A stretch of DNA of 64,000 bases, from assembly GCF_014199295.1 (NCBI RefSeq), contig NZ_JACIJH010000003.1, positions 62,001 through 126,000 on the forward strand. Reading direction: 5' to 3'. Below the pieces are notes generated by a model. It ran no database searches and was not told the DNA's origin. It was given only the letters and a program-made list of their open reading frames with translations. Each line of letters begins with the position of its first letter. Position 1 is the stretch's first letter. Below are positions 33,948-64,000 of this stretch, piece by piece. Position numbers and translations under genes: made by a program. Source of the DNA: Sphingopyxis panaciterrulae (GTDB lineage Bacteria > Pseudomonadota > Alphaproteobacteria > Sphingomonadales > Sphingomonadaceae).

Positions 33948-35782
33948 TCCAATCCCTCCTCATCGCCAATCGCGGCGAGATCGCCTGCCGTATCATCCGC
34001 ACCGCGCGCGAGATGGGCATAAGGACCGTTGCGGTCTATTCGGATGCTGACGCCAAGGCGCTGCATGTGCGTGAGGCCGACGAGGTCGTGCACATCGGGC
34101 CGTCGCCGGCGCGCGAATCCTATCTGGTTGGTGAGAAGATCATCGCTGCGGCGAAGGCGAGCCGCGCCGCGGCAATCCATCCCGGATACGGTTTCCTGTC
34201 GGAGAATGCGGAGTTCGCGCAGGCCGTGATCGATGCCGGGCTGGTGTGGGTCGGACCGAAACCTGCGTCGATCACCGCGATGGGATTGAAAGACGCCGCC
34301 AAGACGCTGATGGCCGAGGCGGGCGTCCCTGTGACGCCGGGCTATATGGGCGCAAATCAGGACGCGACCTTCCTCGCCGAACAAGCGGCCGAGATCGGCT
34401 ATCCGGTGCTGATCAAGGCCGTCGCGGGCGGTGGCGGCAAGGGGATGCGCAAGGTCGATGCGGCGGCCGACTTCGCCGACGCGCTCGCCTCGTGCCAGCG
34501 CGAGGCGACGGCGTCGTTCGGCAACGACCATGTGCTGATCGAGAAATATATCCTGACCCCGCGCCATATCGAGGTACAGGTATTCGGCGACACCCATGGC
34601 AATGTCGTCCACCTGTTCGAGCGCGACTGTTCGCTGCAGCGCCGCCACCAGAAGGTGATCGAGGAAGCCCCCGCTCCCGGCATGAACGAGGTGACCCGCG
34701 CCGAACTGTGCGCCGCCGCGGTGCGCGCCGCGAAGGCGGTCGATTATGTCGGCGCGGGGACGATCGAGTTCATCGCCGATGCGTCCGAAGGCCTGCGCGC
34801 CGACCGCATCTGGTTCATGGAAATGAACACGCGGCTACAGGTCGAGCATCCGGTGACGGAAGAGATCACCGGCGTCGATCTGGTCGAATGGCAGCTTCGC
34901 GTCGCGAGCGGCGAGCCGCTGCCGCTGGCGCAGGACGAGCTGGCGATCGATGGGTGGGCGATGGAGGCGCGCCTTTATGCGGAAGATCCAGCGAAGGGCT
35001 TCCTGCCCTCGACCGGCGCGCTGGAGCTGTTCCAGCTTCCCGAGGATTTCGGCCGCGTCGATACCGGCGTTCATGAAGGCACCGAAGTATCGCCTTTCTA
35101 TGACCCGATGATCGCCAAACTCATCGCGCATGGCGAGACCCGCGACGAAGCGCGCGAAACGCTGTCAGAGATGCTGGAGGATAGCGCGGTCTGGCCGGTG
35201 AAAACCAATTCGGCCTTCCTGATCCGCGCGCTCGATCACCCTGATTTCGTCGCGGGTAAGGTCGATACCGGACTGATCGGCCGCGATGGCGACGCGATGA
35301 CGGCCGAGCCCGAGCCGTCGCCGCAAGCGCTGACCAACGCGGCGATGGCGATGGTGCCGCGCTCGCTCCAAGCAGGCTTCCGGCTCAATGCGCCCGATGT
35401 CCGCACCACTCCCTTTCTGCTCGACGGCAAGCGCGTCGATGTCGCACTCCACGGTCCCGGAACCGACGAACCGGCATCCGCCATGCTCGTCGCCGAGAGC
35501 GGCTCGGTCTGGCAATTGTCGCCGTGGCGCGCCGTAGGCGCCGCCGGAAGTGTCGCAGGCGACGGCGCGATTCTGTCGCCGATGCCCGGCAAGATCATCG
35601 CGGTGGACGTATCCGCCGGTGATGCGGTGACCAAGGGGCAGAGGCTGCTGACGCTCGAGGCGATGAAGATGGAGCATACGCTCACCGCGCCCTTCGACGG
35701 AATCGTCGCCGAACTCAACGCATCGCCCGGCGAGCAGGTGCAGGTCGAGGCGCTGCTGGCGCGGATCGAGGCGGCGGAATGA
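33944..35782 (+). CDS. mccA: methylcrotonyl-CoA carboxylase biotin-containing (alpha) subunit
   Basis: Biotin carboxylase plus biotin carrier subunit of the leucine-degradation carboxylase. The 612-residue protein has the biotin carboxylase domain ([17 protein letters not shown] at the start, ATP-grasp loop [26 protein letters not shown]) and a C-terminal biotinyl domain with EAMKMEH, biotinylated Lys575. I choose ATG 33944, which overlaps the upstream stop (ATGA), over an ATG four codons earlier. The next gene overlaps its stop. Confidence 0.94.
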
Positions 35783-54228: not shown

Positions 54229-54795
54229 ATGACCGGCGCAACGCCCCTCCCCCTCTATGCCATCGGTCTCGGCTCCAACCGGCGCCATGGCCGTTTCGGC
54301 GATCCGCGGCGCGTGTTGCTGGCAGCCCTCGCAGCGCTCGAGAGCGAGGGTATCGAGCCGGTCGATGCGAGTCCGATCATATCGAGCGCTCCGCTCGGCC
54401 CGTCGCGGCGGCGCTATGCTAATGCCGTCGCGCTCGTGGTCTCGCCGCTCGATCCGCCGGCGATGCTGGCGCGCCTGAAGGCGATCGAAGCGGCGTTCGG
54501 CCGCCGCATCGGCCAACGCTGGGGCGCGCGGACGCTCGACCTCGATATCCTGCTTTGGTCGGGCGGCGCATGGAGCGACGACCGCCTGACCATCCCGCAT
54601 CCCGCCATGGCCGAGCGGCCGTTCGTCCTCGGCCCGCTGACCCGCATCGCCCCCGGCTGGCGCCACCCGCTCGCTGCGCGCAGCATCCGTCAACTCGCCA
54701 CGACACTGGCGCGGGCCAAGCCGGTTGACCGCGCGCCACTGGCGCACGAGGGCGGCCGCCCGCTTTCGCACGGTCGCCCCACGGCAACGCGATAG
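54229..54795 (+). CDS. folK: 2-amino-4-hydroxy-6-hydroxymethyldihydropteridine pyrophosphokinase
   Basis: Transfers pyrophosphate to the pterin in folate synthesis. The 188-residue protein opens YAIGLGSNRRHG (the GSN motif), and has RWGARTLDLDILL, the HPPK signature with the catalytic aspartates, then IPHPAMAERPFVLGPL. The C-terminal 35 residues are an unusual Arg/Ala-rich tail. ATG 54229 is preferred over an upstream start within the UDG gene. Confidence 0.9.
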   Translation: MTGATPLPLYAIGLGSNRRHGRFGDPRRVLLAALAALESEGIEPVDASPIISSAPLGPSRRRYANAVALVVSPLDPPAMLARLKAIEAAFGRRIGQRWGARTLDLDILLWSGGAWSDDRLTIPHPAMAERPFVLGPLTRIAPGWRHPLAARSIRQLATTLARAKPVDRAPLAHEGGRPLSHGRPTATR

Positions 54796-54875
54796 GCTTG
54801 CGCCCAGTTAGCAGAGCGTGGACTTTTAGGTTTCCAAACCGACCGCGGAACAATCCGTGATCCTGGGATAAAACC

Positions 54876-54894
54876 ATGCTTTATTACAAAGCAT
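54876..54894. terminator. AT-rich hairpin between convergent folK and adhesin genes
   Basis: ATGCTTT-ATTAC-AAAGCAT is a perfect 7-base stem with a 5-base loop, 80 bases after folK and 32 bases beyond the adhesin stop. It is AT-rich for this genome and has no T-run, so termination is a weak suggestion. Confidence 0.3.
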
Positions 54895-54926
54895 TATGGA
54901 TCGTGTCTGACATACGCCATCGCGCC

Positions 54927-57599
54927 CTAGAACTCCCCGGCCACGCCAACGCGGACGGCGTTGTTGCCGTGTCCAGCGTATGCGAAGCCCGCGGTGAGGG
55001 CGAAGGGATTGTCGGTATCGAGCCGGTGGGAGATCGCGCCGCCGATCGCCTGCGCCTCGCGAAAGGTCGAGCCGTTCAATGCATAGCTGGTTCGTCCCGG
55101 CGCCGACGGCATCGGGGCGTAGCCCATCGCCATCGCCGCGGCGGTGCCGGCGCGGGCGTCGCGCCGGACGCGGTCGAGATCGAAGCGGATTCCCGCGATG
55201 TCGCCCGGTCCGAAATCGGCCAGTGCGAGATTGCCAGCCGCGTCCGACGTCACGTAGCTCACCGGACCGGATTGCGCCGCCCGGCTCTCTGCGGAGCCGA
55301 TCCCGGCCAGCGTGTAGGTCGAGGCCACCGAGCCCAGCGCTACCTGGCCCGGGCGGCTGGCCACTGCATTCTCACCGATCGCGACCGCACCGCCGGCCGT
55401 CGCGCGAGCATTGCTGCCGAGCGCGATGGCGGACTGCCCCTCTGCCACGCTGTCGGCGCCGATCGCCACGGCGGCGAGACCCGTCGCGCTGTTGTCCGCG
55501 CCGATCGCGACGGCGCCGCGCCCGATTGCGTGATTGGGATCGCCGATCGCCACCGCGCCGTCGCCCGAGGCGACATTGCCAAGCCCGATTGCGACCGCCG
55601 CACCGTCGGTCGCTTGTGCGCCGGTACCGATGGCGACTGCATCGTCACCGCCGGCGTTTGCCCCCGAGCCCATCGCAATCGCGTTGGCGCCGGTCGCGGT
55701 CGGTCGGTCGCCGCTGCCGTTGATAGCCAGATACTCGGTGCGTTTCAGCGCTTCACCGGCGACCAGCTTGGCGGCGTCGGCATTGGCCGAAGCGCTTTCG
55801 GCGATCGAGCGAGCGAGGTCGGCATTGGTCTGCGCCGTCACCGCGACCTGCTGCGCCGCGTCGGCGCGCGTAGCCGCATCGTCGGCAGCGGTCTGCGCAT
55901 TGGCGGCATTGGCAAGCGCGAGATCCGCCGTTTGCCTCGTCACCGCGCCGCTTGCGATCGCCTGGTTCGCAAGGTCGCGCGCTTCGTCCGCGCGCGTCTG
56001 CGCGGTGGCGGCTTCGGTGCGGGCAAGCGCCGCTTCGCTCGCGGCATTGTCCGCGGTCACCTGCGCGGTCGCCGCATTGGCGAGCGCCGTGTTGGCGGTT
56101 CCTTGCGCGGTGGCCGCGTTAGTCAGCGCCGTATCCGCGGTGCTCTGAGCCGTGGCGGCATTGGCGAGCGCCGTGTCGGCTGTCGTCTGGGCAGTGGCGG
56201 CCTTGCTCAATGCGGTATCCGCCGTGCCTTGCGCTGTTGCCGCGTCGGCCAGGGCGGTTTCGGCCGTCGTCTGTGCCGTGGTCGCGGTCGCTTGTGCCGC
56301 CGTGGCGCCGGCAAGCGCGCTGTCCGCCGTATTCTGCGCGGTCGCGACGGCCTGGTTGGTGTCGTAAAGCTGCCCGCCCGTCACTGCATCGGTCGAGCCC
56401 GCTACGATGGCGCCATCGGCGACGTTGACGATGCTCCGCTCGGCGCCGGCTGCACCGACCGAGACCGTGTCCGCCTGATCCGCGATCGAGCCCTGCCCCA
56501 GCGCGACCGCGCCGTCACCCGTGGCGCTGGCACCCTGCCCAAAGGCGGAGGCGCCGACCGCGTGTGCCATGGCGCTCTCGCCCACGGCGGTCGCATCGGT
56601 CTGGCCGGCAGCGGTCCCACCAGCCTGCGCGTTGGCGCCGATCGCCGTCGAGCGGTCATTGAAATAGGAATCGCCGGTCCAGGTACTGCCAGCTTGGGCG
56701 AAATAGCCGATCGCGGTACTCGAATCGCCCACAGTAAGGCTCCGGAAACCGTTCGCGGTGCTGTTATCGCTATAGATAAAGCTGCCTTGGCCAGTGGCGG
56801 TGCCGTTCTCGCCAGAGACAACGGCGTGTTGGCCGATCGCCGTGCTGTTGTCGTCATCGACAACGGCGAACTGTCCGACCGCGGTGCTGTTCGAGCCATA
56901 GGCGCGGCTGTCCTGGCCGACCGCGGTGCTGCTCGCGCCCTCGGCAAGGCTTATGGAACCTATCGCGGTACCCCGACCGCCGGTCGCGCTCGCCCCCTGA
57001 CCCAAGGCGGTGGCCTGGAGGGCGTTTGCCACGGCGCTCGTACCCACGGCGGTCGCGCCGGTCTGCCCTGCGGCGCCCGCGCCCGCCTGCGCATTGGCGC
57101 CCAGCGCGGTCGTGTCGGCATTGGCAAAGGCGCCGCCCGGAAACATGCTGCCGGCGCTGGCGGCGAACCCGACTGCGGTGCTGTTCATCCCCGACGCGAA
57201 GCCGTTCTTGCCTGTCACCGTGCTGGCCTCGCCGCTAGCTTCGCTCCCATTTCCGATCGCTGTAGCGTTGTCGGCGGCGTAGGCGCTGGCGCCGATGGCG
57301 GTGCTATAGTCGCCGATGGCTTCGCTCCCGTGGCCGGTGGCGGTGCTACCGGTTCCGCTGGCGGTGCTCGACGCGCCGGTGGCAGCGCTGAACAGGCCGC
57401 TCGCGGTGCTGTCTACACCCGTTGCGACACTGCCGACTCCGCTGGCGGTGGCGTTCACACCGCATTCGGTGGAATCCTCGCCAGCGCCTTCGTTGCACTC
57501 CGACGTCGGGTCGGCGTGGGCGGTCGTGGGCAGCACCAGCGCAGCGACGATCGCGAGGGGGGTGACAGCGGCAAGTAGCTTTACGCGTATGGGGCGCAT
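54927..57599 (-). CDS. trimeric autotransporter adhesin (YadA family)
   Basis: A type Vc adhesin of about 890 residues on the cell surface. Order: signal peptide (residues 1-28, ending LVLPTTAHA), a head with many Hep_Hag/YadA 14-residue repeats of A-x-G-x-x-S/A-x-A-x-G type (about 35-410), a coiled-coil stalk containing six perfect-register 14-residue repeats TAQxTADTALANAA (441-524) and further heptads, a second head block of AVAIGxxA repeats (about 600-770), and the C-terminal membrane anchor (about last 75 residues, ending VGVAGEF with the terminal Phe). Start ATG 57599 gives a normal signal peptide; GTG 57626 is an alternative. Confidence 0.9.
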   Translation of the reverse strand: MRPIRVKLLAAVTPLAIVAALVLPTTAHADPTSECNEGAGEDSTECGVNATASGVGSVATGVDSTASGLFSAATGASSTASGTGSTATGHGSEAIGDYSTAIGASAYAADNATAIGNGSEASGEASTVTGKNGFASGMNSTAVGFAASAGSMFPGGAFANADTTALGANAQAGAGAAGQTGATAVGTSAVANALQATALGQGASATGGRGTAIGSISLAEGASSTAVGQDSRAYGSNSTAVGQFAVVDDDNSTAIGQHAVVSGENGTATGQGSFIYSDNSTANGFRSLTVGDSSTAIGYFAQAGSTWTGDSYFNDRSTAIGANAQAGGTAAGQTDATAVGESAMAHAVGASAFGQGASATGDGAVALGQGSIADQADTVSVGAAGAERSIVNVADGAIVAGSTDAVTGGQLYDTNQAVATAQNTADSALAGATAAQATATTAQTTAETALADAATAQGTADTALSKAATAQTTADTALANAATAQSTADTALTNAATAQGTANTALANAATAQVTADNAASEAALARTEAATAQTRADEARDLANQAIASGAVTRQTADLALANAANAQTAADDAATRADAAQQVAVTAQTNADLARSIAESASANADAAKLVAGEALKRTEYLAINGSGDRPTATGANAIAMGSGANAGGDDAVAIGTGAQATDGAAVAIGLGNVASGDGAVAIGDPNHAIGRGAVAIGADNSATGLAAVAIGADSVAEGQSAIALGSNARATAGGAVAIGENAVASRPGQVALGSVASTYTLAGIGSAESRAAQSGPVSYVTSDAAGNLALADFGPGDIAGIRFDLDRVRRDARAGTAAAMAMGYAPMPSAPGRTSYALNGSTFREAQAIGGAISHRLDTDNPFALTAGFAYAGHGNNAVRVGVAGEF
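56028..56279 (-). repeat. six 42-bp tandem repeats encoding the adhesin stalk
   Basis: Each unit encodes 14 residues (two heptads) of the pattern TAQxTADTALxNAA; the six units run from 56279 down to 56028 on the adhesin strand. Copy number can change by recombination without shifting the frame, changing stalk length. Confidence 0.85.
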
Positions 57600-58066
57600 G
57601 ATGTGATTTTCCCGGTTCGTGGCCACATGCCGCCATCTGGCGGAGGGGGCCGAAGGCCCCGCGCAGATGCTGCGGATTGTAGCTCTTGAGTAGCCTGCGC
57701 TCGGTCATGTCGCTCGACCAGACTAGGGGCGCGAGGGCCGGCAATTCCACCGATCAATTCCATTGAATTCTGACCAATTCTGCCGACATCGAATGTCGGC
57801 CTATGGAGCCAATCAATCTCAAGATATTGAGTTAAAATGAAAAATATAGGACTTGGGCTCATGGGCGCGCGAATGCCATGCTTGCTCGAAAGACAATCCT
57901 GATCCGCACACCGGCGACGGCATATCTTCAGGCCCGGCGCTCACAGGCGAGAACATCCAAGAGTGCCCCCCTTAGGCGGCGTGGACAAATTCGTTTGACC
58001 GAGATTCGCTATAACTTGTTAGAAAACGGCCCGTCCGGACACGACCGAAAGCGGTTAGTCGTCGAT

Positions 58067-58158
58067 CGTCACCCCAGACTTGATCCGGGGTCCCGCTGGA
58101 TGCCGAAACCAGTCGATACCTTGAAAAAGCGGGAACCCGGATCAAGTCCGGGGTGACG
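58067..58158. repeat. palindromic repeat module, element B (copy 2, inverted)
   Basis: CGTCACCCCAGACTTGATCC on the left and a right arm ending CCGGGGTGACG; loop AACCAGTCGATACCTTGAAA. The reverse complement of the element at 22013-22096 matches this sequence almost throughout, including the loop. Confidence 0.85.
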
Positions 58159-58223
58159 AAGATCGGGAAACGACCGCTTATGCGACGATCGGCGTTATAA
58201 TGGCGATCGGCGCTTTATAACCT

Positions 58224-58301
58224 TGTCATTCCCGCGAAGGCGGGAATCCAGAGCGTGCGTCGGCTGACCCCCCACCGGATTCCCGCCTTTGCGGGAATGA
58301 C
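58224..58301. repeat. palindromic repeat module, element A (copy 2, inverted)
   Basis: TGTCATTCCCGCGAAGGCGG with right arm ending GCGGGAATGAC and loop AGCGTGCGTCGGCTGACCCC. The loop is the reverse complement of that at 21883-21961. Confidence 0.85.
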
Positions 58302-58420
58302 GAAGCTGGGGTATGCCCGCTCCCACCCCGTTCCCGCCATTTCGTCGCCTCTAACCCGTTCTTTCCAAGCAGACATTCGCCTGGCATGGAATTTGTCCAC
58401 GCCGCCTAGATCCCTGGTAT

Positions 58421-60238
58421 TTACGGCGCCGTTTGCTTGCCTATGGTGACGCCCGTCATGGTGCCCGCTGCAGAATCCTTGATATTGAAAACTGCTGCAT
58501 ATTCCTGAGCCGCATTGCCGTAGAAGCGCCCGGCCAGGCTTCCCGGACCCGAGTTCCAAGCTCCCGTGAATGCAGCCGAGTAGGCATCGATCACTCCCGA
58601 GAAGTCATACCGGCCAAGAGCCGTCGAGACGCCGTCTGCGGTGATCCGCGTGGGAAACAGGCTGGCCGCCAATGCCCCCGTTCCGAAATTTGCCGTCAGG
58701 TCGGATCGTCCGACCAGTGCGGCGACGAGCTTCGAACCGTCGTCGATGTCTCCGAAAAGACGGCCTGCATAGGTCGCGCTACCACTCCGTGGCAATTGGT
58801 CGGGCGGCGTGAAATTGCCGAAGCCGATATATTCGACGCTTTCGCCAAGGGTTTTGCCGTCAAAGTCGGTGCGTGTCGCCAGAACACGCATGAAGCTCGC
58901 ATAGGTCAGCTGGATATTGTCAGTTTCGCCATCGAACAGGCCGATCGAATATTGCACCTTTCCGTCGACGAACGGCTGCGCCACGCCATAGGCTCGAAAA
59001 TCCTCCGAATCCTTCGCTGCAACGCGATTGGCAGGACCGAAGGAGAACTGGAATCCCGCAGCCGACCGACTGGACACCGTATATGTTTGCGTATCGGCGT
59101 CGTAGATGATCGTTTCCGCCAGGGGTGGATCGATCCTCCCTTCAGCGGGCAGGTTGATCGCCGCCCAAACGGTCCGGAAACGGGTCGTCCCCTCCAGATC
59201 GGCAAGCGTATCGTCCGGGGCGGTTTCCGGCAGGCCATAGCCCGCAAAGGCAAGGCTGTAGTATAGCGGGCCCGAGCTGCCATAGAGCGTCCCGCCAATA
59301 TCCTCGGCGGAAGGGCCGAAAAAAGACCCGGTCAAATTGCCCGTATAAGTGTCGGACGCCCCCGCCTTTGCAGTGAAGGTGCCGGTAAAGCGATTTTCAC
59401 CGGCGACGATCGCGCCGCTGGCTTGGACTTCCCCTTCGCTTTCGACGCCCGGAATCCCGGCACCGAAGAAATTGAACGATGCCGTCTTGCCGGCGATTTC
59501 AAGCTGCCCCGTTCCGAAATCCACGAGGGCCGTCCCGTCCCCGACCATATCGAGCAGGCTGTCGGTGGCGCTGGAGGAGCGGGTGCCGCTGAACGTCAGG
59601 TCATAGGCAGCACTCCCCATCTTGGGCACGGCGGACGCCTCGCTCGGAAAGCCGAAGACCAGATCGAGCGTGCGATAATGGTCAATGCCGGTCGGTATAT
59701 CCGTTTGTCTTATGAGAAGTTGGCCGAGCGCAACATAATCGGGAGCGGTCGTCCAGTCGGATCGCATACCCCAATCGAGATCGAGTTGCGTGATCTTGTC
59801 ACCCTCGATCTTTTCATAGCGAAGCAGGTTTGAGGCCGCGATTTTCACGTCGGCCGGATTGAACACGAACTCCTCGGATCCCGTGCCGAGCGTAAAGCTA
59901 TCCGTGCCGGCATCATAGACCAGGCTCGCTTCGGCCACCGGACCACCGGATGCGGACTGCGCACGGCCGACATCATAATCGACCGCAGCGAGATTTGCGG
60001 TCGCGGCGAATGTCGTACTGACCGCAGGTTTCCCGACGATCTTCGTCGCTGGCGGCGTAGGAGTGGGAGTGGGAGTAGGCGTAGGCGTAGGCGCTGGTGT
60101 GGGCGTAGGTGTCGGTGCAGGCGTGGGCGGCGCGGGCGTCGAATTGACACCCCCGCCCCCACCGCAACCGGCGAGCATCAGACTGAGCGCCGCCAACGAA
60201 ACCATCGCCGTCAGTCTCTTGGAAGGTGCAAAACGCAT
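58421..60238 (-). CDS. TbpB-like surface lipoprotein, likely Slam client
   Basis: A 605-residue lipoprotein. The signal peptide ends in lipobox LAGC (Cys25), followed by five Gly and a (Pro-Thr)n tether (about 35-64), then two transferrin-binding-protein-like lobes. Each lobe carries GSAxY, a later FGTG, and ends in an x-FYG/FFG-x-x-A-E/Q motif: GSFFGPSAEDIGGTL at 304-318 and GRFYGNAAQEYAAVF near 570-585. This bilobed plan is like TbpB and Slam-dependent surface lipoproteins; the ligand is unknown. ATG 60238 has GGGGGA upstream. It begins 14 bases after the upstream Slam-like gene stop. Confidence 0.82.
   Translation of the reverse strand: MRFAPSKRLTAMVSLAALSLMLAGCGGGGGVNSTPAPPTPAPTPTPTPAPTPTPTPTPTPTPPATKIVGKPAVSTTFAATANLAAVDYDVGRAQSASGGPVAEASLVYDAGTDSFTLGTGSEEFVFNPADVKIAASNLLRYEKIEGDKITQLDLDWGMRSDWTTAPDYVALGQLLIRQTDIPTGIDHYRTLDLVFGFPSEASAVPKMGSAAYDLTFSGTRSSSATDSLLDMVGDGTALVDFGTGQLEIAGKTASFNFFGAGIPGVESEGEVQASGAIVAGENRFTGTFTAKAGASDTYTGNLTGSFFGPSAEDIGGTLYGSSGPLYYSLAFAGYGLPETAPDDTLADLEGTTRFRTVWAAINLPAEGRIDPPLAETIIYDADTQTYTVSSRSAAGFQFSFGPANRVAAKDSEDFRAYGVAQPFVDGKVQYSIGLFDGETDNIQLTYASFMRVLATRTDFDGKTLGESVEYIGFGNFTPPDQLPRSGSATYAGRLFGDIDDGSKLVAALVGRSDLTANFGTGALAASLFPTRITADGVSTALGRYDFSGVIDAYSAAFTGAWNSGPGSLAGRFYGNAAQEYAAVFNIKDSAAGTMTGVTIGKQTAP
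60056..60130 (-). repeat. hexanucleotide-type repeat encoding the Pro-Thr tether
   Basis: Near-perfect reiterations of a six-base unit (GTGGGA / GTAGGC variants on the plus strand) encode alternating Pro-Thr/Pro-Ala residues of the lipoprotein tether. Slippage by whole units would lengthen or shorten the tether without a frameshift. Confidence 0.75.
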
Positions 60239-60252
60239 GGGTAATTCCCCCG

Positions 60253-61614
60253 TCAAAACGCCGACGTGACGCCAAATTCAGCGGCAACGCGGCGATAATC
60301 ATAGATCTCGATCGAGGAGCGGTTGCGCTCCCATTTCAGGCGGACCAGCGGCGCGAGACGACCGAGCCTCAGGGCCCGGAGCGTCATCGCGAGGCTTGCG
60401 TCATAGCGATCCTCGACCCGGCGTTTCGGATAGAGGAACAGGCGCTCGTCAGCTTCGAGATGGCTGTACCCCAAAGTTCCGACCAACGTAGCGCGCCCAA
60501 ACTCGCGAAACAGATAGAAGGAGGTTCCCCCGCTCGCCAGCGAATAGCCGGGATCGCGCGCGGCCTCCCGGAATCCGTAGAGTTGCACCCCGCCGCCCGT
60601 TCGGGCGCTGAATGCCCGGTCAAAGCTTGCAGAGAGGGTGAAATCGTCGGCGGTCTGAAGGACATTGCGCAGGTTGGTCTGGTGCGCGATACCGCCTTCG
60701 ATCCTCATCTGGCTTCGCTTGCCGGTCAGGCGTTGCCAGCTCACGCTGCCGCCGACCGCCCTGCTATAGGGATCGCGCCCATACCAGCGCCACGATGGCC
60801 CGAATGAAAAGGTCAGTTGACTGCGGCCCCAGGCATATTGCGGGCCGGCCTGAACGCCGATCGTGACGTCGTTGAAACCGGCGTCGCGATAGAGGACCGC
60901 GCTAGCAGACGCGCGAAGCAGGAGGTCTGCGCCGGGCTCGACGCCGATGCGGACATAGCCCTGCCCCTGAAGGTCGAGACCGACGCCCGATTTCGCCCGC
61001 GCTTCCTCGTCGAGGACGAAGTCGCCGATCACCGTGCCCAGCGTGTCGGAGCGAGTAGCGCGGTTGATGTTGCTGTCGGGCGCGAGCGCCACCTTGATCG
61101 AGCCGCCCACAGGCTTTCGGGCATCGAGGGCGCGCGAATAAAAACGCACGATCTGCTCGACCTCCGGCGGCAGGCCCGCGGCCTCGGCAGCGCGCAACTC
61201 CTTGCGCGCTGCGGCGAGATTGCCAAGCATGGCCTGCATGCGCGCCAGTTCCAGCCGCACCCGTGCGACATCCGGCTTGTCGTCGAGGATGCGACGGAAC
61301 TCGATCGCCGCATCCGAATAGCGCTCGAGATCGTCGGCCAGCATCATTCCGAGGCGGAATCGCGCCTCGGTACGCAGTTCGATATCGAGGTCCTTGGTGA
61401 GCGCCCGATAGGCCGATTCCGCCGTTATGAAGTCGCGGCGCGACCGTGCCTCGTCGGCCAATTCGAAAAGTTGCGCAGCTGAAAGTTTCACGCTGGCGGG
61501 TGATACGGGAGGACTCTCAACGAAGACGCCCGGGTCCGTCGTTTCCTGTGCTTTGCCGACAGTAGAAAAGCTCGCCGCGACCAACGTCGCTACGAATATT
61601 CGAATTCGAATCAT
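60253..61614 (-). CDS. Slam-type outer-membrane surface-lipoprotein assembly modifier
   Basis: A 453-residue outer-membrane protein. A signal peptide (MIRIRIFVATLVAASFSTVG, cut near KA/QE) is followed by TPR-like helical repeats (about 46-148) and then a beta-rich region (about 170-453) starting IKVALAPDSNINRAT, the opening typical of the DUF560 barrel of Slam proteins, and ending in a terminal Phe. Known Slams (Neisseria) carry TPR plus a barrel and translocate lipoproteins such as TbpB to the surface. Immediate downstream TbpB-like lipoprotein strongly supports this. ATG 61614 has GGGGGGTGG upstream. DUF560 assignment is by eye, not by HMM. Confidence 0.82.
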   Translation of the reverse strand: MIRIRIFVATLVAASFSTVGKAQETTDPGVFVESPPVSPASVKLSAAQLFELADEARSRRDFITAESAYRALTKDLDIELRTEARFRLGMMLADDLERYSDAAIEFRRILDDKPDVARVRLELARMQAMLGNLAAARKELRAAEAAGLPPEVEQIVRFYSRALDARKPVGGSIKVALAPDSNINRATRSDTLGTVIGDFVLDEEARAKSGVGLDLQGQGYVRIGVEPGADLLLRASASAVLYRDAGFNDVTIGVQAGPQYAWGRSQLTFSFGPSWRWYGRDPYSRAVGGSVSWQRLTGKRSQMRIEGGIAHQTNLRNVLQTADDFTLSASFDRAFSARTGGGVQLYGFREAARDPGYSLASGGTSFYLFREFGRATLVGTLGYSHLEADERLFLYPKRRVEDRYDASLAMTLRALRLGRLAPLVRLKWERNRSSIEIYDYRRVAAEFGVTSAF

Positions 61615-62302
61615 CCACCCCCCACTTGGAGGTCATTCTTATCCAGCGAAAAGAAGAGCTGTCCAGAAAATCAGGGTGTTATACGGGCTTGTGTATGAGA
61701 AAATTTGTTCGGAGAGGGACCGTCCATTTCCCGTTCGGTTCCGATACACGCCATTGGATTTCACGAAAATGTGGGGTCGCTTGCGTCAGCAGCTTACAGG
61801 GCGGAAAATTATCTTATATAATCAAATAAATAAACCATACGGCTTCGAAGAGTGACGGCTATCCCCGACCGCTTCCCGATCTTCAGCAGCGATCGAGGGT
61901 TGGAGCATCGGAAACGCACGGGCGCATCTCGATACCGCGAACGACAACCTACGTGAGGTAATTTGCACGGGCCCCCCTTCTCCCATCGTCGTCCTGTGCT
62001 TATCCACCAAGCGAGCCTTGGTTTCGAATAGCGGCGGCCGGACAGCCGGCCGGCGTGCAACCTCATTCAACCATCGCTGTATGCAGCGCGCAGCCTATAG
62101 CCCGGCAAAGATGCGCGCGTGTCAAATCATGGGCTAAGGTCTCGTTTGAAGAGCCTGATTGCAGCCTGGTCCATCGGCCGAAAAGGTATGCGATCTTTTT
62201 TGGGAAAGGCCGTTGCAATGCCCAGAACGGCGTGATAGTTGGCCCCTCGCTTCGCAGCCAAGAGGGCTTCTTCCCGCTGCCGGCGGTGCCAAAAATGGCA
62301 AC
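61615..62302. other. gene-free gap upstream of slam with AT-rich patch
   Basis: No convincing gene on either strand. The patch at about 61800-61850 (AATTATCTTATATAATCAAA) is clearly lower in GC than its surroundings and includes ATTAT-CTTAT-ATAAT, a small inverted repeat. It could contain the slam promoter or an operator, but I found no match to a Fur box as good as that at 62593. Small open frames inside (82-85 codons) have no recognisable content. Confidence 0.4.
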
Positions 62303-62378
62303 GGGCCCTTAGCTCAGTCGGTAGAGCAACTGACTTTTAATCAGTAGGTCGCTGGTTCGAACCCAGCAGGGCTCACCA
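62303..62378 (+). tRNA. tRNA-Lys (anticodon UUU)
   Basis: The 76-base sequence GGGCCCTTAGCTCAGTCGGT... forms the cloverleaf with acceptor stem GGGCCCT/AGGGCTC, anticodon loop CTTTTAA (anticodon TTT, codons AAA/AAG), T-arm GGTTCGAACC, and encoded CCA. It divides the slam region from the TonB receptor. tRNA-Lys genes are known integration sites, but I see no integrase or duplicated 3' end. Confidence 0.95.
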
Positions 62379-62592
62379 TTATTATTCAATGGGTTATACT
62401 TAAAGCCCGCCCCCCTCCTCGAACTGGCGACCAAGTCGTTCGCCACCGTCTGCCCCCGCTGATCCTGGTTGGCATGGCGTCATTCTGCCCGGCATCGCCC
62501 CGGCCAGTTCAAAAACATCGTGCGGTCGGCGCACGGGTAGATACGGCGCGGGGCCCGCAACGCCGGATGCAGAAATTTCACAATAAACGTTG

Positions 62593-62615
62593 CTAATGAG
62601 ATTGACTCGCATTAG
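62593..62615. promoter_or_regulatory. Fur-box-like operator of the TonB receptor
   Basis: CTAATGAGA-TTGAC-TCGCATTAG is a 23-base inverted repeat of 9-base arms with one mismatch, 41 bases upstream of the receptor ATG. The inner AATGAGA...TCTCATT form is close to the classical Fur half-site AATGATA / TATCATT layout. This suggests iron control of the receptor. Confidence 0.65.
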
Positions 62616-62655
62616 TCGGCCATTCGACGAGCAATCGAGCCGAAGGGGGCCTTTC

Positions 62656-64000
62656 ATGACAGCCGCGCGTTTCACCCTGCTGATCTGCACCGCACTTGCA
62701 AGCGCGCCGGGACTCGCTGACGAGACCGCATCGACGGAAGAGCAGTCGCAGGACCAGATCGTCGTCACCGGCTATGCGGGAACCAAGACAGATACCGCGC
62801 TGACCGAGCTTCCGCAGCCGATCAAGGTCATCACCGCCGAGCAATATGAGGCGCAGGGCGCGATCAACATCAGCGACATGGTGAAATATGCCGCAGGGGT
62901 CCTCGCCAATCCCTATGGCCGCGACACTCGCGTCGACGGCTTCAACGTGCGCGGCCTCGACGCGCTGCAGTTCCGCGACGGCATGCGCGACATCTTCTCC
63001 TATTATGCCAGCATCACGTCGGACCCCTACAACTTCTCCCGCGTCGAGATCGTGCGCGGCCCCGCATCGGTGCTGTTCGGCCAGGGCTCGATCGGCGGTA
63101 TCGTCAACCTCGTCAGCAAGACGCCCGACTTCACCACGCGCGGCGAAATCAACCTCGTCTACGGCAGCTATGACCGCAAGGAGGTGCTGGGCGACGTCAA
63201 CCTCGCGCTCGCCGACAATCTCGCGGTCCGGTTCGTCGGTCGCGCGCGCGATGCCGACACCTTTGTCGACCATGTGCCCGACGACCGCGTGATGTTCGCA
63301 CCCTCGATCCGCTGGCAACCGACGCCCGACACCGACGTCGTTCTGACCGGCCTCTATCAGGAGGACGACACCGGTTCGACCTCGCAATTCCTGCCGATAG
63401 TCGGCACCTTCAGGCCCAACCCGATCGCCGGCGAGCAGCTCGATCGCTACACTTTCGTCGGCAAGGCCGGCTGGGACCGCTATGCCGGCCGTTCGCTGCA
63501 AGGCGGCGGGTCGATCACCCACCGCTTCTCGGACGCCGTCAAGCTCAGCCTGAAGGCGCGCTATATCGACAGCGACCTCGAATATAACACCCATTATGCC
63601 GACAGCTACACGAACCCGCAGGATCCCTTCTCGGTCTACGGAACCGACGGCCGCACGATCGCCCTGATCGCGGACGCCAGCGATGCGCGGATGAACGTCT
63701 TTTCGACCGATAATAATGTCGAGTTCAACTTCGGCACCGGTGCCGATATCGAGCACAAGCTCCTCGTCGGCATCGACTATAGCTGGAACAAGGTGCAAAA
63801 ACGCAGTGCCGGCGGCTTCGAGCTCGTCGACCTCTACGACATCGATTATGACGCGCTGACGACCTACGACCCCGCCGATCCCTTCATCTCGGAAAGCCAG
63901 AAGCAGCTCGGCATCTATGTCCAGGACCAGATCCGCTTCTACGACCGCATCTCGGTCGTGCTCGGCGCTCGCCGCGACCGCGTCACCGGCTCGTCGGGCC
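62656..64000 (+). CDS. TonB-dependent siderophore receptor (partial, runs off window)
   Basis: At least 448 codons from ATG 62656; the 3' end is beyond the window. It has a signal peptide (FTLLICTALASAPGLA/D, residues 6-22), a TonB box DQIVVTG (34-40), a plug domain with NVRGLDALQFRDG and the siderophore-type segment SRVEIVRGPASVLFGQGSIG then GIVNLVSK, then barrel strands to the window end. The ferric ligand cannot be told. A Fur-box-like palindrome lies 41 bases upstream. Confidence 0.9.
   Translation, partial: MTAARFTLLICTALASAPGLADETASTEEQSQDQIVVTGYAGTKTDTALTELPQPIKVITAEQYEAQGAINISDMVKYAAGVLANPYGRDTRVDGFNVRGLDALQFRDGMRDIFSYYASITSDPYNFSRVEIVRGPASVLFGQGSIGGIVNLVSKTPDFTTRGEINLVYGSYDRKEVLGDVNLALADNLAVRFVGRARDADTFVDHVPDDRVMFAPSIRWQPTPDTDVVLTGLYQEDDTGSTSQFLPIVGTFRPNPIAGEQLDRYTFVGKAGWDRYAGRSLQGGGSITHRFSDAVKLSLKARYIDSDLEYNTHYADSYTNPQDPFSVYGTDGRTIALIADASDARMNVFSTDNNVEFNFGTGADIEHKLLVGIDYSWNKVQKRSAGGFELVDLYDIDYDALTTYDPADPFISESQKQLGIYVQDQIRFYDRISVVLGARRDRVTGSSG

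Follow-up and report, generated by a model that had tools for sequence, protein, structure and literature searches.

Do two neighboring genes of Sphingopyxis panaciterrulae that resemble the Slam translocator and the lipoprotein TbpB form a system for surface display, and if so, does it serve the uptake of iron? We have addressed this by computational analysis of a stretch of 64,000 nucleotides (assembly GCF_014199295.1, contig NZ_JACIJH010000003.1, positions 62,001 to 126,000), termed the window; all coordinates are those of the window unless a locus is named. The two genes very probably constitute a self-contained type 11 secretion system (T11SS, or Slam) pair, with the lipoprotein as its predicted cargo. 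The elements concerned are as follows.

60253..61614, minus strand: Slam/T11SS outer-membrane protein (DUF560, SlipAM), from PF04575 above cut-off and an AlphaFold2 model.
58421..60238, minus strand: lipoprotein predicted to be the Slam cargo, with poly-Gly, a Pro-Thr stalk and a pair of handle-barrel lobes, from PF01298, NF041636, the model and TbpB as best structural match.
60044..60166, minus strand: poly-Gly and Pro-Thr stalk, residues 25 (the lipobox Cys) to 65, from the sequence and the stalks of relatives.

A preliminary description, made from the letters of the sequence, had placed both open reading frames on the minus strand 14 bases apart, and this is what we find. The Slam frame encodes 453 amino acids, with its ATG at 61614 and its stop ending at 60253; a gap of 14 bases (60239-60252) separates it from the lipoprotein frame of 605 amino acids, with its ATG at 60238 and its stop ending at 58421. 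The motifs listed in that description are likewise present. The translocator contains APDSNINRAT, and its signal peptide was recognised by eye. The lipoprotein has a lipobox LAGC at residues 22-25, read directly from the sequence, followed by GGGGGVNSTP and then a Pro-Thr run. Both lobes carry the motif G-x-F-F/Y-G, as GSFFG and GRFYG, and it recurs in the consensus of 31 aligned cargoes.

The family assignments are based on profile scans. SlipAM (PF04575) matched the translocator with E 2.2e-10, scoring 41 bits against a cut-off of 22, and at E 0.001 it matched 37/37 aligned Slams. TbpB_B_D (PF01298) matched the lipoprotein in two stretches with E 1.4e-12, 48.7 bits against a cut-off of 26, and a barrel of this family is located at the C-terminus; at the same threshold it was found in 31/31 aligned cargoes. 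Two further scores weigh against the assignment. TPR_Slam (PF24575) reached E 3.7e-5 and 24.5 bits on the translocator, below its cut-off of 35.2, with 36/37 aligned Slams matched at E 0.001; and NF041636 (slam_lipo), the NCBI model for Slam-dependent lipoproteins, gave E 6.8e-17 and 62.2 bits on the lipoprotein, below its cut-off of 80. Sequence searches of the PDB returned nothing of note for the Slam; for the lipoprotein they gave only weak matches, to fHbp and NHBA (best 0.0015).

The predicted structures point in the same direction as the profiles. The AlphaFold2 model of the Slam, calculated with 36 relatives aligned (mean predicted local distance difference test [pLDDT] 80.2, predicted template modeling score [pTM] 0.58), has seven helices in residues 46-165 followed by 14 strands. 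Its best Foldseek matches are BcsC, a TPR-plus-barrel protein, and OmpG, a barrel of 14 strands. The model of lipoprotein residues 66-605, made with alignments, has two handle-barrel lobes (mean pLDDT 85.7, pTM 0.79), and its top structural match is TbpB. The preliminary proposal of a Slam-type translocator, lying beside a two-lobed TbpB-like lipoprotein as its predicted cargo in a sphingomonad, is supported.

The same genome contains a second, distant TPR-plus-barrel protein (L296:8208-9500), 26% identical to the Slam and without a SlipAM match. Directly downstream of its gene lies an open reading frame of 1949 residues (L296:2395-8241) with no Pfam match at E 0.01, and it is possible that these two genes form a secretion pair of another kind.

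Is the pair of the window still functional? It could be a decaying or non-functional remnant of an insertion, since the class is patchy: a Slam of this class (at least 47% identity) occurs in 7/60 same-genus genomes, the present one included, and one of the copies has an internal stop. Against this, both frames are open, and the ratios of nonsynonymous to synonymous substitution (dN/dS), calculated against two relatives, lie between 0.14 and 0.24 (Slam 0.14 and 0.16; lobes of the lipoprotein 0.19 and 0.24). We therefore regard a remnant as very improbable. Within the lobes, dN/dS of the handle exceeded that of its barrel in 4/4 lobe-by-relative comparisons, these being short stretches.

How does the pair compare with known systems? 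In Neisseria, Slam1 alone transports TbpB through a membrane in vitro; Skp keeps TbpB unfolded, and in the authors' model Slam recognizes a C-terminal signal (PMC9090332). The window pair shares with Slam1 and TbpB the translocator family and a lipid-anchored cargo that has two handle-barrel lobes, with TbpB as the best structural match. It differs in that identity in structural alignments is only about 13-19%, and the full length of the lipoprotein superimposes on TbpB only at a root mean square deviation of 16 to 18, so that the orientation of the lobes either differs or is uncertain.

Closer counterparts have been described in sphingomonads themselves. Grossman and co-workers reported a DUF560 subcluster composed mostly of environmentally isolated Sphingomonadaceae (PMC8406197); the likeness of the window protein to this T11SS subcluster 1C is at the level of the family and of the sphingomonad host. 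A 2025 paper (PMC12282271) describes 'Sphingomonas surface proteins', which carry proline-threonine repeats at the N-terminus together with several TbpB domains; 18 are lipoproteins and 12 soluble, and they contain two to three handle-barrel pairs. The paper lists them among the categories that lack a characterized representative. The window lipoprotein resembles this group (T11SS cluster 1) in its Pro-Thr repeats close to the N-terminus, its more than one TbpB_B_D lobe, its adjoining T11SS gene and its sphingomonad host, and a comparison by description revealed no difference. The Psychrobacter surface proteins of the same paper are similar in having a repeat stalk and several TbpB barrels, with Pro-Thr-Asp repeats by the paper's description where the window protein has Pro-Thr. 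Judged from its sequence, the pair fits the published description of a 'Sphingomonas surface protein'. On this evidence, the statement that such systems are little described in sphingomonads does not hold: the kind of pair is already published, and what is new here is the insertion and the likely transfer considered below. In the part of the literature covered, we found no study that examined the function of such a pair in a sphingomonad.

By analogy with the Neisseria work, a similar route of export is the most likely one here. The lipoprotein would be exported by Sec and lipidated at Cys25, and a Skp-like chaperone would hold it unfolded; the genome has one OmpH/Skp-family match. It would then pass through the barrel of the Slam, which would recognize the C-terminal barrel lobe, and fold outside the cell, lipid-anchored on its poly-Gly/Pro-Thr stalk.

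An alternative is that the lipoprotein stays on the periplasmic side, or is carried to the surface by a different route for which the poly-Gly tract is the signal, while the Slam exports something else. Two unrelated lipoproteins encoded in this genome (L261, L262), an S41 peptidase and an HbpS-like protein, do begin with a similar poly-Gly/Pro-Thr stretch; they are two of the four such matches that were fetched. The poly-Gly stalk was accordingly rejected as a mark of Slam cargo, being non-specific. However, Slam targeting has been predicted in print to reside in the C-terminal barrel of TbpB type (PMC12282271), and cargo and Slam genes adjoin in 68/80 loci (see below). We consider this alternative improbable.

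The preliminary description had suggested a survey of gene neighborhoods in Sphingomonadales, and pairs of a Slam and a TbpB-type cargo prove to occur widely in this order. At E 0.001, SlipAM was matched in 70/296 genomes and TbpB_B_D in 49/296, and 44 of the 82 SlipAM matches (38 genomes) had a TbpB_B_D match within 6 kb. The order of the two genes is correlated with the number of TbpB_B_D matches. Where the Slam comes first (12 of the 44), 11 have more than one match nearby; where the cargo comes first (32), this is true of 4 (Fisher P 1.9e-6, kinship not corrected). Named genomes were also scanned with patterns derived from this class of Slam, and the best 80 of 120 relatives were kept. Cargo genes in these loci were sought with a home-made gene caller and home-made profiles, so that starts of reading frames are approximate. 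A cargo match was present in 71 of these 80 loci, on the same strand and adjacent in 68. The cargo was directly downstream of the Slam in 42, directly upstream in 26 and elsewhere in the locus in 3; the remaining 9 had none, some being cut by contig ends. In L163, L170, L183, L184 and L198 two or three cargo frames lie in a row beside a single Slam.

The lengths of the adjacent cargo frames cluster at about 300-390, 570-690 and 840-1030 residues, with a few outside these ranges, as would be expected for one, two or three lobes, the third lobe being deduced from length. Stretch-by-stretch family scans were read for four full proteins: TbpB_B_D matched one stretch in L163 (340 amino acids), two in the window protein, and two each, not three, in L154 and L172, which are of three-lobe length. 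The length of the stalk also differs between relatives. The closest copy of the pair is in a Sphingopyxis metagenome bin (Slam 92% and lipoprotein lobes 90% identical), and Sphingopyxis sp. LC81 carries an 81% identical Slam. Apart from these two, identity to the window is 21-39% for cargo lobes and 41-74% for Slams, in overlapping but non-identical sets of loci; by these figures divergence is quicker in the lobes of the cargo than in the Slam.

The surroundings of the pair were compared with the spacing of the same borders in relatives. The features are these.

54794..62302, no strand: 7.5-kb insertion holding an adhesin gene and the pair, from the folK-tRNA spacing in relatives.
54229..54795, plus strand: folK-like gene at the left border, from its open reading frame, a match in 56/60 same-genus genomes (own included) and the junction.
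62303..62378, plus strand: tRNA-Lys (ttt) at the right border, from ARAGORN.
54927..57626, minus strand: trimeric autotransporter adhesin with YadA head repeats and a weak YadA anchor, from PF05658 and PF03895.

The gene at the left border (54229..54795) we take to be folK. A folK match is present in 55 other same-genus genomes, of which 19 were fetched; four of these (L282, L285, L291, L293) have a Slam of the class at another site. The distance from a motif in the end of folK to the tRNA is 61-64 bases in 19/19 of the fetched genomes, compared with 7572 in the window. By eye, the window tracks its relatives over the 63 bases that precede the start of their tRNA and then diverges, and similarity returns at the first base of the tRNA; from this break and resumption we place the insertion at 54794-62302. 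Its first two bases supply the last two of the folK stop codon. The spacers of the insertion are richer in A+T, with a G+C content of 0.55-0.57 compared with 0.66 for the window. To the right of the tRNA-Lys (beyond 62378) we detected no similarity between this genome and any of the 19 (L277-L295), and on this comparison the region is a variable spot. Since the sequence there is unlike all 19 genomes, a rearrangement with the same end points may have occurred instead of an insertion.

The three long genes of the insertion were scanned against Pfam. The adhesin matched PF05658 in 16 stretches (E 3.4e-28), and PF03895 with 20.1 bits, below the cut-off of 22.7; an adhesin match was present in 24/60 same-genus genomes, own included. 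Between the adhesin and the lipoprotein, at 58070-58301, lie an inverted pair resembling repetitive extragenic palindromes (TTCCCGCGAAGGCGGGAATCC) and a second repeat; 20 exact copies of TTCCCGCGAAGGCGGGAATCC occur across the genome, and 16 of these face one another in pairs.

The pair itself has probably been mobile. In the relative with the 92% identical Slam, for which 13.4 kb were fetched, the aligning block of 3277 bases corresponds to window 58418-61622, that is to the two genes alone, with one further match of 149 bases elsewhere. For the 81% relative the alignment falls into two pieces that span 58411-61670, with one further match of 1105 bases at 33956-35017. The pair thus occupies different chromosomal sites in close relatives. 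A tRNA gene is not a general rule of insertion, and this candidate was rejected; none lies in the flanking sequence fetched for the two closest relatives, and 2/20 scanned loci have one. A quick tree of the Slam (79 rows of the class plus 3 outgroup rows) puts the window and its two Sphingopyxis kin in a group of 13 rows (SH-like approximate likelihood-ratio test [SH-aLRT] 99), the others being nine Novosphingobium and 'Sphingomonas sp. IC081'. Nested within it is a group of 8 rows (98) comprising the window, the two kin and five Novosphingobium, and four other Sphingopyxis or same-genus Slams branch elsewhere in the tree.

On one reading of these observations, the two genes would be a mobile cassette for surface display that is exchanged between Novosphingobium and Sphingopyxis and brings no uptake genes with it. 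Here it would have arrived together with the adhesin gene, forming a surface-adhesion island of 7.5 kb placed exactly where the 5' end of tRNA-Lys lies. The cargo would diversify by the number of its lobes (one, two, perhaps three) and the length of its stalk, the translocator being conserved. We put the chances of this reading as a whole at slightly short of even. One result speaks against the joint arrival: a copy of the C-terminal 260 residues of the adhesin, 81% identical, is present at another place in the genome (G000:C3:233733-234509), and the adhesin may therefore have arrived separately.

Does the pair serve uptake? The preliminary description had proposed a ligand related to iron or to a host, and a receptor gene does lie across the tRNA from the insertion.

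62590..64000, plus strand: TonB-dependent siderophore-type receptor, running past the end of the window and outside the insertion, from PF00593, PF07715 and TIGR01783 above cut-off (L094:6594-8714).

This frame starts 975 bases from the start of the Slam and diverges from it, and a gene for a PepSY protein follows it. The lipoprotein might thus capture a siderophore, haem or cobalamin and pass it to a TonB receptor as TbpB does to TbpA, the partner being this divergent siderophore-type receptor with its PepSY protein. The adjoining receptor is, however, not TbpA-like, in contrast to the Neisseria system: it alone was scored with the TbpA-type model TIGR01776, giving 22.2 bits against 468.8. 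With about 77 TonB receptors in the genome (80 matches, three of them second pieces), one of them nearby is unremarkable. In the two closest relatives no receptor was found by profile within 6 kb of the pair. Receptors were present in 12/46 regions compared with 7/40 displaced controls from the same genomes (P 0.44), and in 12/41 true pairs (P 0.30), so that no significant enrichment was seen in this small sample. The 46 regions are 41 with a pair, four with a cargo and no Slam (L096, L097, L118, L120) and one in which a Slam has no cargo (L119). The loci themselves supplied the sequences for the receptor profile, so that weak receptors may be missed in both sets. A linkage to the divergent siderophore-type receptor was rejected on these grounds, and the suggested iron- or host-related ligand is not supported.

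Some loci nevertheless count in favor of uptake. A receptor lies within 6 kb in 25 of the 80 named loci, a figure that has no control set. In Novosphingobium resinovorum (L144, Slam 73% identical) a receptor is divergent from the Slam and adjoins it as in the window, but it is only 25% identical to the window receptor. Receptors of one cluster recur within 6 kb in 20 loci, FecCD permeases in 11 and binding proteins in 9; in six of the 80 (L169, L170, L175, L180, L181, L195) a receptor, a binding protein, a FecCD permease and an ATP-binding cassette (ABC) ATPase all stand beside the pair, and such full sets would favor uptake. In the one set scanned, that of Novosphingobium taihuense (L170), the receptor and permease match vitamin B12 models best, below the curated cut-offs, the ATPase matches a haem model best, and the binding protein matches BtuF weakly. 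This B12-type set is accompanied in part by uvrA, found in 23 loci, and by recurrent peptidase genes, and for this reason we read it as an old shared gene order. We have not accepted the B12 linkage as proof of a shared task, though in those genera there may be one. Taken with the absence of a receptor near the pair in its closest relatives, an accessory role in uptake seems unlikely to us, though clearly less so than export by another route.

We favor, tentatively and at somewhat less than even odds, a role in attachment, or in capturing a ligand with no need of a dedicated partner for uptake, over iron piracy of the transferrin type. Our reasons are that the pair seems self-sufficient and mobile, that its lobes change rapidly and that an adhesin gene stands beside it here.

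Interest in TbpB-like surface lipoproteins has come from animal pathogens, in which they are studied as receptors for host iron and as vaccine antigens. If the present reading is true, a large family of sphingomonad pairs that apparently have no fixed partner for uptake and move from genus to genus would point to a general display machine, of which host-iron piracy would be a specialized use. The pair is small and clean enough for direct testing in laboratory E. coli.

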